Below, piece after piece: positions 2,417 to 5,479 of a stretch of 5,479 nt of DNA. Numbering within the stretch: position 1 is the first letter of the stretch; every line of letters begins with the position of its first letter. Position numbers and translations under genes: made by a program. This DNA is from JALSIF01 sp026981635 [NCBI: bacterium] (lineage in GTDB: Bacteria > 4484-113 > JALSIF01), in the NCBI GenBank assembly GCA_026981635.1, contig JALSIF010000040.1, forward strand, positions 1 through 5,479, given 5' to 3'. The notes below the pieces were generated by a model. It saw nothing but the letters and a program-made list of their open reading frames with translations, searched no databases and was not told the origin of the DNA.

Positions 2417-3370
2417 TCAGCTCGCCGATGCCCCGGTGACGGCTGGGCAGGCCATCTGTACAAAGCGGTCAAAGAGCTTCTCCTCGTAGGTGAGGGTAAG
2501 CTCCTCCGGGCTCATCCCCGACTGGATCAGGGCCTGGGTTGCCCTCAGCCCCAGGAAGTAGCCGAAGCGGCCGGGAAGCTCCACCCCCCCGAGCGAAACC
2601 GGCTCCGTCTGAAAGAGGAGCCTCTCAAACACCTCCTCCTCATCGCTCTCAATCGCCTCCACCACCTCCCCCAGGTGTTTGGCATAGACCTCCCCTGCCC
2701 GCTCATACTCCTCCTCTGAGTAGCCCAGCACCGCCGGCTCCTCCCGGCCGGTGAGCTCCAGCGACTCCCAGGTGGCCATCCCCTCGTCCATCACGAAGGC
2801 CTTGATGGGGCAGAGGGGGCGAAGCTTGCTAATCAGCACCCCGGTGCTCAGGGCAAGCTCGTTGAACCAGGAGCGGGTGCGGTGGTCCAGGGAAAGGTAG
2901 CGGCGAAGGTGGGCAAGCTCGTGGGATAGCCAGATGGGAAGGTTCTCCAGGGGTACCCTGAGGCTGGGCTCGGGAGCATCCTCGCCAAACTGCTCCAGGC
3001 AGATGCCCACCATCCCCACCCCCTGCTTGGCCCCCTGGAAGGCGTTGGAGAAGAAGAGGCCGGGCATTAGGACCACATAGATCTCCCTTTCGCCGAGGCC
3101 CATCCGCTCCTCAAGCTCCCGGGCCAGCCGCTCCGCCTCCTGGCCGATCCGGTCGCGCACCCCGAGCACATGCTCCCGGTAGGCATCCCTTTCTACCGCG
3201 GATAGAATCTCTTTGGCATCCTCCCCCTTCTCCAGACCGGCAAGGTCGGTGAGGTAGCGCTCGGCAAGGTAGGGGGAGTAGTCGGCCAGGGCCTCCCAGT
3301 AGCCCTCCCCGTCGGCCTCAACCACCCTGTCCAGCAGCAGTTCGGTTAGATCGTTTACCCTCACACCCAT
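2417..3370 (-). CDS. HExxH zinc metallopeptidase, DUF2268-like
   Basis: The protein has 317 residues and no signal peptide or membrane segment, so it is probably cytoplasmic. The motif LSHELAHLRR gives the zinc ligands His150 and His154 and the catalytic Glu151. About 42 residues later, MDEGMATWES offers Glu196 as the third ligand, the layout of gluzincins. This HExxH-(~40)-EGxA pattern, followed by a C-terminal GYFLG-x-R helix (270-275) and an SPEEL segment (287-291), resembles the DUF2268 family of predicted Zn-dependent proteases. The first 90 residues look helical and acidic. The substrate is unknown. The start ATG at 3370 has no Shine-Dalgarno, but TAGAAT lies 9 nt upstream. It lies 42 nt downstream of the ACT-domain ORF on the same strand, so it may be transcribed from its own promoter and also by read-through. 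The catalytic class is well supported; the exact family is less so. Confidence 0.8.
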   Translation of the reverse strand: MGVRVNDLTELLLDRVVEADGEGYWEALADYSPYLAERYLTDLAGLEKGEDAKEILSAVERDAYREHVLGVRDRIGQEAERLARELEERMGLGEREIYVVLMPGLFFSNAFQGAKQGVGMVGICLEQFGEDAPEPSLRVPLENLPIWLSHELAHLRRYLSLDHRTRSWFNELALSTGVLISKLRPLCPIKAFVMDEGMATWESLELTGREEPAVLGYSEEEYERAGEVYAKHLGEVVEAIESDEEEVFERLLFQTEPVSLGGVELPGRFGYFLGLRATQALIQSGMSPEELTLTYEEKLFDRFVQMACPAVTGASAS

Positions 3371-3412: not shown

Positions 3413-4084
3413 TTAGAGGCGGTGGATGTAGTTGAAGAGCTCCTCGCTCTGCAGGCCCACCAGCAGCCCCAGCCTCACCCCCAGGTCCTCCAGCTGGCGC
3501 TTTAGCTCCACGAAGGGCAGCCGGCAGGAGCAGGCGTCCACCCGGCCGATCACCACCGCCATCTCCCCCACCTGCTCCCGCTCCCAGCCCACCAGCCGAC
3601 AGCCGTTCTTCTCCAGGTAGGCGCGAAGCTCCCGCTCCTTGGGCTCGGTGAGCTGGCCCGCCACGGTGAGCACCAGCCGCTGGCAGAGGCCGGGACCGGG
3701 GGCAGCCTTGGCCGGCCGGTAGTCGGCCCGGGGCTGATAGGAGAAGGCGTTGCCCTGCTCCCGGCTGGGCAGGAGAAAGCCCACCTGGGGCCCGGTGTGG
3801 AGGAGGACGGGGTGTTCCTCCGGCTTGACCTTTGGCCTGACGGAGGGGGAGGCAGGGGCTCTCTGGCCGGTCCCCCTGGCCGCCTGGGCCTGCGGCGATG
3901 GGGCCGGTTTGGGTGCGGCCTTGCCCTCTTCCCCGCCGGTTCGCCTGAGTATCTCCACCACCGCCCGGGTGAGGGCCTCCGGCGGTGCGTCCATTCCCAG
4001 CTCCCTCACCGCCGCCTCAATGGCCCCCTCCACCTCGGATAGGGAGCCCACCCTGACCTGGCCCGATGGCTTGGCCAGGGGCAT
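3413..4084 (-). CDS. ACT-domain (UPF0237-like) ORF; likely 3' part of a frameshifted gene
   Basis: From the ATG at 4084 the frame gives 223 residues. Residues 15-50 form two likely amphipathic helices ending in EALTRAVVEILRRTGG. A Pro/Ala/Lys-rich linker (about 52-130) follows. Residues 136-223 look like an ACT domain: a RLVLTVAG strand, a helix, a second strand, then FVELKRQLEDLG and LQSEELFNYIHRL. The last part matches the end of UPF0237 ACT proteins (FDELKEEL, then QREDIFxAMHRI). ACT domains usually bind small ligands such as amino acids; no ligand is evident here. The ATG has no Shine-Dalgarno and no promoter. Its frame stays open upstream to 4150 with Pro/Ala-rich residues, then crosses the A9 run into the preceding gene. 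I therefore think this is not an independent gene but the C-terminal half of a 445-residue product. Confidence 0.7.
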   Translation of the reverse strand: MPLAKPSGQVRVGSLSEVEGAIEAAVRELGMDAPPEALTRAVVEILRRTGGEEGKAAPKPAPSPQAQAARGTGQRAPASPSVRPKVKPEEHPVLLHTGPQVGFLLPSREQGNAFSYQPRADYRPAKAAPGPGLCQRLVLTVAGQLTEPKERELRAYLEKNGCRLVGWEREQVGEMAVVIGRVDACSCRLPFVELKRQLEDLGVRLGLLVGLQSEELFNYIHRL

Positions 4085-4143
4085 GCCTGAGGGGGCCTTG
4101 GTAGCAGGGGGGGCACTACCGGTTGCCGGCGGAGGGGGGCTAG

Positions 4144-4749
4144 TTAGGGATTTTTTTTTGAGCCCTCCGACGGCGTGGGGAAGGGGCTTGCTCCCGGCGT
4201 TGGCACGGAGGGATTGCCCCGCCAGTTGGTGGAGGGGTCGTTTTCCTGCCTCACCCTGGACCGGGCGTAGGGCATCCCTTCCCGCTTCTCCGGCGGCGAG
4301 GGCCTCAGGTTCAGGTTGCCCGCCCAGCTGGGCAGGCGGTCAAAGTCGGTCCCTCCGTCCTGGTAGTAGTAGGGCCGAAATATGGGCACCTTGGGCTGGT
4401 AGGGAGTGGGGGTGAAGGCCCCGGTTACCCTCTCCGGCCGGGTCCCCTCTGGGACCTGGTGGACGAAACTCTGGGGGTTGGTGTGGGAGGGAAGCTCCGG
4501 CTCAACCATGGGCCGGTTGCCCGGCCAGTTGCTCTTGGGAATGTCGCGAAAGTGTCGCGGGTCCCGCTCCCGGTTGGTAAGGTTTCTCGGCCATGGCTGG
4601 ACCACCGGCCTTCCCCCCTTGTAGATGGTGATCCCGTGCTCCCTGGCGTGGTCGGCGGCAAGCGGCGTGATGATGGTCTCCTCGTCCACATCCAGCCGGC
4701 TGCCCGGGGGGAGCTGCTTGATGTCCGCCAGGGAGATGAGCTTGGCCAC
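4144..4749 (-). CDS. EutT/EutQ-like N-terminal motif plus disordered repeat region; likely 5' part of a frameshifted gene
   Basis: Starting at GTG 4749, this frame gives 201 residues. Residues 1-45 (LISLADIKQLPPG, then IITPLAADHAREHGITI) resemble the N-terminal segment of EutT and EutQ, where a strand is followed by (I/L)TPxAR and a short helix. The usual Arg is Ala here. From about 46 the chain is rich in Pro, Asn, Arg and aromatic residues, with no predicted fold. It contains a repeated short motif: WPRN (53), WPGN (75), WAGN (142) and WRGN (176). The frame ends KKNP right after nine adenines. On its own it lacks a folded C-terminal domain, which supports fusion to the next ORF by slippage. 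The GTG is chosen because an extended -10 TATAAT lies exactly 6 nt upstream. A scaffold or tether role, perhaps in a microcompartment, is inference. Confidence 0.7.
   Translation of the reverse strand: MAKLISLADIKQLPPGSRLDVDEETIITPLAADHAREHGITIYKGGRPVVQPWPRNLTNRERDPRHFRDIPKSNWPGNRPMVEPELPSHTNPQSFVHQVPEGTRPERVTGAFTPTPYQPKVPIFRPYYYQDGGTDFDRLPSWAGNLNLRPSPPEKREGMPYARSRVRQENDPSTNWRGNPSVPTPGASPFPTPSEGSKKNP
4151..4168 (-). other. A9 slippage site joining two ORFs (programmed or mutational frameshift)
   Basis: On the minus strand the upstream frame reads TCA AAA AAA AAT CCC TAA through a run of nine adenines (4159-4151). This contains the heptamer A AAA AAA in the phase required for -1 ribosomal slippage. 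After a -1 shift, or one extra A in the transcript, the frame continues AAA TCC CTA ACT and runs open through 4084 to the stop at 3413, giving 445 residues in total. An SD-like GGAGGG (4168-4163) lies 3 nt before the run. Thermus thermophilus dnaX uses transcriptional slippage on nine adenines. E. coli dnaX uses A AAA AAG with an upstream SD-like element about 10 nt away, so the spacing here differs. A sequencing error or a real inactivating indel in the homopolymer would look the same. Confidence 0.7.
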
Positions 4750-4755
4750 GGGCCG

Positions 4756-4764
4756 ATTATAGCA
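4756..4764 (-). promoter_or_regulatory. Extended -10 promoter, leaderless, for the GTG at 4749
   Basis: TGC followed by a perfect TATAAT sits on the minus strand, ending exactly 6 nt before the GTG. Transcription would start at or within a base of the start codon. No -35 box is needed with an extended -10 and none is seen. There is no Shine-Dalgarno. This is the best promoter in the window. Confidence 0.7.
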
Positions 4765-4805: not shown

Positions 4806-5479
4806 ATGCCGACGGAAACTGACCGCCACCTGCTCAGCCTCTACCAGAAGCACCTAAACGAGGGGCTCGCCCGCCTGATTGACTTTATGGGCCTGGCCAC
4901 CGAGGAGGTGGATGCGGAGGGCTCCATCGTGCGCACGGCAGACGGGCGCGAGTTCATTGACCTCCTTGGCGGCTACGGGGTCTTCAACCTGGGCCACCGC
5001 CACCCCCGGGTGGTGGAGGCGGTGCGGCGCCAGCTTGAGCGCATGCCCCTCTCGGCCAAGGTCTTCCTCAACCGCCCCCAGGCGGAGCTGGCCGCAAAGC
5101 TTGCCGAGATCACCCCGGGGGAGCTTGCCAGGTGCTTCTTCTGCAACTCGGGCACCGAGGCGGTGGAGGCGGCCATCAAGTTTTCCCGCCTGGCCACCGG
5201 CCGCTCCCAGGTGGTCTACGCCACCGGCGCCTTCCACGGCAAGACCCTGGGCTCCCTCTCCGCCACCGACCGTCCCCACTACCGCGACCCCTTCATGCCT
5301 CTCTTGGAGTTTCGCCTGGTCCCCTACGGCGACCCGGCCTCCCTTGAGGAGGCGGTTAGCGAGGACACCGCCTGCCTGCTCATTGAGCCCATCCAGGGCG
5401 AGGGGGGCATCGTCATCCCCCCCGACGGCTACCTTCGGGCCTGCCGCGAGGCCTGCCATCGGGCGGGCGCCCTTTTGGT
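4806..5479 (+). CDS. Class III PLP aminotransferase, putrescine aminotransferase-like, N-terminal half
   Basis: The frame opens with ATG at 4806 and is cut by the right edge after 224 codons, about half of the usual 430-460 residues. It shows the fold-type I aminotransferase landmarks: GREFIDLLGGYGVFNLGHRHP (48-68, in two parts), the phosphate-binding NSGTEAVEAAIK (114-125), AFHGKTLGSLSAT (142-154), PFMPLL (162-167) and EPIQGEGG (194-201). The FIDxLGGxGxFNxGHR and CNSGTE...AFHGKxLGxLSAT...PFMPLL combination is closest to putrescine aminotransferase (PatA/YgjG), although acetylornithine or other omega-amine enzymes cannot be excluded. The catalytic lysine and the cofactor aspartate lie beyond the window. 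The enzyme would move an amino group from an amine to a keto acid, usually 2-oxoglutarate, using pyridoxal phosphate in the cytoplasm. It is divergent from the A9-linked gene, with 56 bp between start codons. Confidence 0.88.
   Translation, partial: MPTETDRHLLSLYQKHLNEGLARLIDFMGLATEEVDAEGSIVRTADGREFIDLLGGYGVFNLGHRHPRVVEAVRRQLERMPLSAKVFLNRPQAELAAKLAEITPGELARCFFCNSGTEAVEAAIKFSRLATGRSQVVYATGAFHGKTLGSLSATDRPHYRDPFMPLLEFRLVPYGDPASLEEAVSEDTACLLIEPIQGEGGIVIPPDGYLRACREACHRAGALL

Follow-up and report, generated by a model that had tools for sequence, protein, structure and literature searches.

The two open reading frames at positions 3,413 to 4,749 of the window, the 5,479-base DNA stretch analyzed here, are on balance best read as one gene in which RNA polymerase slippage on a run of nine adenines (A9) would yield a short and a long product, both probably microcompartment-associated. 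The window is an entire contig (C40) of a fragmented metagenome-assembled genome (MAG; 1.745 Mb, 317 contigs, 85% complete), and its features are collected in Table 1. The 3′ end of the first frame (ORF1) reads TCA AAA AAA AAT CCC TAA, and the −1 frame across the run reads CTC AAA AAA AAA TCC and meets no stop until 3413. The initial annotation was thus correct that ORF1 ends just past the A9 run and that the −1 frame is open through it. The stop-free stretch of the ORF2 frame spans 308 codons and its first ATG, GTG or TTG is the ATG at 4084. As also computed earlier from the frames, a −1 slip on A9 gives a predicted fusion of 445 residues, and one added A does the same.

Table 1. Features of the slippage-candidate gene, in coordinates of the window.
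Feature	Position	Strand	Basis or remark
Extended −10 promoter TGCTATAAT	4756..4764	minus	Ends 6 nt before GTG, leaderless-type ORF1 start; sequence and hexamer score at 6 nt
ORF1, 201 aa, short product or N-terminal half	4144..4749	minus	GTG 4749 to TAA 4144
N-terminal microcompartment-type segment, ~41 residues (ORF1 residues 2-43)	4621..4743	minus	Profile matches
Pro-rich region with four W-x-[GR]-N motifs	4213..4593	minus	W at residues 53, 75, 142 and 176
Candidate A9 slippage site	4151..4159	minus	Genome contains one other A9/T9 run
ORF2, −1 frame part, C-terminal half of the predicted 445-aa long product	3413..4159	minus	Open frame
22 codons from A9 to ATG 4084	4085..4150	minus	Linker rich in Pro, Ser, Thr and Ala in a joined gene; largely spacer if there are two genes
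ATG, earliest possible ORF2 start if a separate gene	4082..4084	minus	No Shine-Dalgarno (SD) site, no −10
C-terminal ACT-like (ferredoxin-like) domain, ~89 residues	3416..3682	minus	Predicted beta-alpha-beta-beta-alpha-beta

Searches of 96 other genomes with each half of the protein returned only the gene itself, and no match was found for the joined protein in a set of genome contigs or for the C-terminal half among viral contigs. The proposal of one gene with two products has partial support: a junction of the ORFs through A9 is favored over separate genes, helped by a T9 split of a second gene in this genome and in two relatives. The motif YQP(K/R), which the initial annotation had pointed to in both halves, is indeed present in each (the exact motif arose in 1 of 50,000 shuffles), although it was picked post hoc and is weak evidence for joining.

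The second gene is priA-like (L012:8714-10839) and contains the other run of this kind in the genome, a T9 at C92:9074-9082. The name priA was assigned here; TIGR00595 stayed below its cut-off in all 10 genomes of the class and other helicases match as well. In the genome under study (G000), a part resembling PF17764, the 3′-DNA-binding domain, lies in one frame (E 0.15, below cut-off) and the PriA-like helicase part lies in the −1 frame (TIGR00595, E 3.6e-6, 25.8 bits against a cut-off of 230). Searched genome-wide, PF17764 exceeded its cut-off in six of the ten genomes, gave nothing in G000, G005 and G007, and matched weakly elsewhere in G001. Seven cysteines are invariant across the ten aligned priA-like proteins.

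The sequence G-T9-GC recurs at the same place and in the same phase in two genera of another family (G002 and G004; loci L091:1408 and L114:1807), and in all three genomes the frame is open for 132-134 codons up to the end of the run. Identity to the G000 helicase part is 15 and 17% in these two relatives. In G004 the two parts come from separate contigs with 27 bases in common. In G002, which corresponds to the public record JAGGVC010000126.1 (MAG isolate AUK090), the helicase frame offers no start codon until 50 codons past T9, and that one has no SD site. In each of the seven other class genomes the priA-like gene is one unbroken ORF, and A and T runs stay below 7 bases in the stretch around it; run and frame break occur together in three of ten genomes and both are missing in seven. 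Since these seven homologs have no run, the T9 split is a feature of only part of the class. The priA-like split is likely programmed slippage that would give a stand-alone N-terminal part along with the full protein. A nine-base run whose length is conserved among homologs is, in the available text of an earlier study, very likely to reflect purposeful slippage (Baranov et al., PMC1088944). In the open-licence literature as far as its text was available, priA and programmed frameshifting co-occurred only in a phage SPP1 genome paper, and no open-licence paper was found on a primosomal protein with frameshift slippage at a poly-run. The main text of the GeneTack frameshift survey (PMC3711429) mentions neither priA, "primosom" nor microcompartment.

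Runs of A9 or T9 occur at two places in 1,745,230 bases. Base composition gives a rough expectation of about 0.7 by our own estimate, so two runs are no excess; what goes beyond chance is that both sit at same-strand switches of coding frame of the same sense (−1). Because both runs are at −1 splits and the priA-like one is common to three genomes, this lineage very probably makes use of slippage at A9/T9. The ten A8 runs of the genome provide a comparison: both of those with a coding-like open frame on either side (L016 and L019; scores 0.05-0.10) keep the frame.

Longer runs were considered across the class in a census of A9 and longer runs, which comprised 40 distinct runs from the nine other genomes. 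Coverage differed among them (2 runs out of 100 matching positions in G004, 4 runs out of 11 in G002); a second place in G009 (L064) was taken as a duplicate of the first, and the priA-like run of G004 fell outside the count. Most of the 40 were not flanked on both sides by a positively scoring open frame, which indicates that A9 usually lies outside genes. Clear same-strand switches were found at the priA-like run of G002, with a left-flank score of just 0.00, and at an A20 run of G007 (L100:1501-1520), itself an apparent same-strand switch of coding frame. The runs at L099 and L107 also showed a same-strand frame change, with scores at or below zero. At least two in-gene A9/T9 runs (L077 and L078) keep the frame, so an A9 within a gene is not always a frame switch.

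An assembly or sequencing error, with a true run of A10 or A7, would also turn one frame into two, and an assembly of this fragmentation and completeness makes such an error conceivable. This explanation is highly improbable given how long runs behave here. Seven distinct G/C runs of 9-10 are present in the assembly and all four of those inside coding frames keep the frame (L016, L028, L029 and L032); the others (L026, L031 and L033) lack coding sequence on one or both sides or are at a contig end. Runs of T10, A13 and A20 were assembled in the class relatives. These two observations show that long runs are not generally miscalled, and the priA-like T9 recurs in three assemblies.

Indels in homopolymers are common. 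A recent indel that made a pseudogene, or a run that varies in phase at the DNA level and was caught by the consensus in its off state, would be compatible with the lack of an ortholog to show that function was kept. We consider this very unlikely. Codon use is intact on both sides of the junction, up to 4160 and again from 4084: three successive parts of ORF1 scored 0.32, 0.28 and 0.13, and the ORF2 frame from 4084 onwards scored 0.25, 0.17 and 0.49, against reference 21-codon windows with a mean of 0.29 (sd 0.20) for true coding frames and −0.53 (sd 0.29) for off-frame ones. The priA-like parallel, being common to families, also speaks against an accidental break and shows that genes split at nine-base runs are kept in the lineage.

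The codons between the run and ATG 4084 bear on whether ORF2 is instead a separate gene that starts at this ATG, 59 nt past the ORF1 stop codon, with the A9 run incidental. In the ORF2 frame these 22 codons (4150-4085) scored −0.31 with a first model and −0.38 with a larger one, and they score like non-coding DNA in every frame. The larger model has an intergenic mean of −0.35, and among 7,339 true coding windows −0.38 falls at roughly the 0.5% quantile. A Viterbi parse called 4088-4143 non-coding and put the start of coding at 4087. Equally low scores were found in at least 9 of 44 windows of a control set of linker-like sequence (stretches of long ORFs with as high a content of the residues P, A, S, T, G, K, Q), a weak control in that its 22-codon windows overlap (step 5), the nine come from two contigs (L006 and L117) and at least one of them falls where the parse of L117 changes frame. 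The likelihood of the switch point peaked near 4204, about 45 bases ahead of A9, and was better there by 8 log units; we attribute this peak to noise in a low-complexity stretch, although it weakens the case for A9 as the precise switch point. Codon statistics for this interval lean toward a gap and against coding, and are not decisive for joining.

A Viterbi scan for background frameshifts covered 183,026 bases (24 contigs or parts of contigs) and gave 12 transitions, most of which involved a short segment (a few to 83 bases) at the edge of a gene. The sole transition between two long segments (L126:3735) was rejected as a frameshift: it marks two overlapping genes, the second of which has TAGAAT 6 nt before its GTG. 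Neither A9/T9 junction was flagged, because the scan closes genes at stops, and the scan therefore supplies no usable background rate.

Start signals gave a different view of ATG 4084. The initial annotation had noted that this ATG has neither an SD site nor a promoter, and we found no SD-like site and no TANNNT at leaderless distance. Each of the five other assigned starts in the window (367, 1382, 3370, 4749 and 4806) has one or the other: the genes given starts at 367 and 1382 have SD sites, and TANNNT is 6 nt from the ATG at 4806, which belongs to the divergent aminotransferase gene, and 9 nt from the ATG at 3370 of the next gene. In a survey of 25 contigs or contig parts, 87 of 120 genes had an SD or −10 at one or more early candidate starts; among 105 sets of internal start codons matched in size, 38 had one. 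The lack of a signal at ATG 4084 argues modestly against ORF2 as a gene of its own, and such an absence is not rare (33 of 120 genes had no recognized signal at their early candidate starts). Two separate genes would fit the poor codon scores, the parse and the position of most A9 runs of the relatives outside coding frames. They fit less well with the contrast between ATG 4084 and the other starts of the window and with the use of the one other A9/T9 run of the genome as a frame-switch site common to relatives; we therefore regard two genes, the main rival reading, as unlikely. The starts at 4749 and 4806 are divergent, of the leaderless type and 56 bases apart, and the split gene and the class-III aminotransferase gene may be co-regulated. 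A string nearly the same as that at the 4749 start, TAGAATCGGCCCGTG, was observed at L126:3720-3745 (C11), where it marks a leaderless-type start within the end of the preceding gene.

If the two ORFs are one gene, the frame could be changed by the ribosome instead of the polymerase. The heptamers A AAA AAA and U UUU UUU are slip-prone, and the first is present in the window gene and the second in the priA-like gene. The SD-like element GGAGGG sits 3 nt upstream of A9 in ORF1/ORF2, and AGGGAG, also SD-like, immediately precedes T9 in the priA-like gene of G000; neither the G002 nor the G004 site has such an element. Seven bases would be enough for a ribosomal slip, yet all four slippery sites (the window gene and the three priA-like genes) are exactly nine long. 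No significant downstream structure was found at the three sites folded (z of −0.1 for the window, 0.1 for the G000 and −0.8 for the G002 priA-like site; the folding covered structures other than pseudoknots). A hairpin upstream of the run, as a stimulator of slippage, was not significant in the window (z +0.7) or at the G002 priA-like site (z 0.8), and was suggestive at the G000 priA-like site (z −1.9; 12 of 200 shuffles). Bacterial RNA polymerase slips efficiently at nine As or Ts according to a review (PMC5009743, section 43). The shared length of nine, the lack of significant downstream folds and this efficiency together favor the polymerase over the ribosome, and −1 ribosomal frameshifting on A AAA AAA is quite unlikely.

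The product of the gene is probably tied to a protein-shelled microcompartment, and its most likely role, as suggested by profile and motif matches, is that of a microcompartment adaptor. The N-terminal segment of ORF1 matched the C-terminal ends of TIGR02536 (E 2.8e-4), PduM (TIGR04493; E 0.094) and PDU_like (PF15953; E 0.28), with bit scores that in no case reached the curated cut-offs (20.6 vs. 152.6, 12.6 vs. 50, and 11.5 vs. 27, respectively). The segment of about 41 residues in common is N-terminal in ORF1 and C-terminal in those families. All four tryptophans of ORF1 fall in W-x-[GR]-N, a pattern defined after viewing the sequence; four were reached in none of 200,000 shuffles. The C-terminal part of the long form matched the ACT profile NF001220 (PRK00194 type) with E 8e-4 and 19.7 bits against a cut-off of 74, covering half of the model. 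The order of elements of the ACT fold is present in a single-sequence AF2 model (pLDDT about 53-88 by blocks of ten). In fold comparison, 1zpv gave a TM of 0.58-0.60 (target length), behind a permuted ribosomal S6, and no match reached E ≤ 0.001.

The genome encodes two hexamer-type and two pentamer-type microcompartment shell proteins, all off the window's contig. The two hexamer-type genes adjoin a gene for an acetylating acetaldehyde dehydrogenase-like protein (L011:474-3096, C317; 562.8 bits vs. a cut-off of 620.1), and the two pentamer-type genes are at L139:31-683 (C42). The hexamer-type shell family had no match in any of the nine other class genomes. Other genes of the window include tandem paralogs at 367-1353 and 1382-2356 (51% identity over 305 columns), whose N-termini look lipoprotein-like by eye, and a minus-strand gene at 2417-3370 with its own leaderless-type promoter and no Pfam or NCBIfam match at E ≤ 1. 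The latter contains HELAH (HExxH) by eye and its product is possibly a metallopeptidase. On another contig (C164), an 82% DNA match falls in an ORF taken by eye for GlmM.

Several known systems resemble the proposed gene in part, as described in the portions of the literature available. The classical A9 case is Thermus thermophilus dnaX, in which nine As give heterogeneous mRNA and two products. The initial annotation drew this comparison, rightly for the mechanism; the outcome is reversed, since the long product of dnaX is the zero-frame one and slippage gives the short one. Shigella mxiE, where slippage makes the long product as proposed for ORF1/ORF2, is closer. The closest parallel in decoding is tssM1 of Citrobacter rodentium, which has a stop just past a poly-A run and gains a long form beside the short one by slippage; tssM1 is a secretion gene with A11 and was shown by experiment, whereas the gene described here has A9, is microcompartment-linked and is known from sequence alone. 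In outcome, the closest parallel is the CsoS2A/CsoS2B pair of alpha-carboxysomes, a repeat-bearing, microcompartment-linked protein that a −1 event produces in two lengths. Abstracts describe the disorder and repeats of CsoS2, and a review (section 20) its −1 ribosomal frameshifting. The long form of CsoS2 is the zero-frame product; the likeness to ORF1/ORF2, under the best reading, would be one of outcome only. Within the open-licence text available, microcompartment, frameshift and slippage came together only in the review that covers CsoS2.

The proposed mechanism is as follows. Transcription of the joined gene, which would be leaderless and divergent from the class-III aminotransferase gene, would be accompanied by RNA polymerase slippage on A9. 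Transcripts that keep nine As would give the 201-residue protein, and those with one extra A (or two fewer) would give the protein of about 445 residues, which alone would carry the ACT-like domain. The product would be a largely disordered microcompartment-associated adaptor that could bind to the shell or to cargo through its N-terminal segment and the four W-x-[GR]-N motifs. Slippage at the ORF1/ORF2 run, its efficiency, and the disorder and scaffold role of the protein are what we infer. A broader reading, held tentatively and with more doubt than confidence, is that the lineage regularly sets the ratio of two protein lengths through T9/A9 slippage, in priA (a stand-alone 3′-DNA-binding domain beside the full helicase, in two families) and in a microcompartment scaffold that parallels CsoS2A/B by an independent mechanism.

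Genes split at slippery runs can pass for two ORFs or for broken genes, a warning for annotation. If the proposed reading is true, the cellular genes expressed through A9/T9 slippage would come to include one for a microcompartment-linked protein and one for a PriA-like replication-restart helicase. It would also suggest that microcompartments acquired a scaffold in two lengths on more than one occasion, through different decoding mechanisms.
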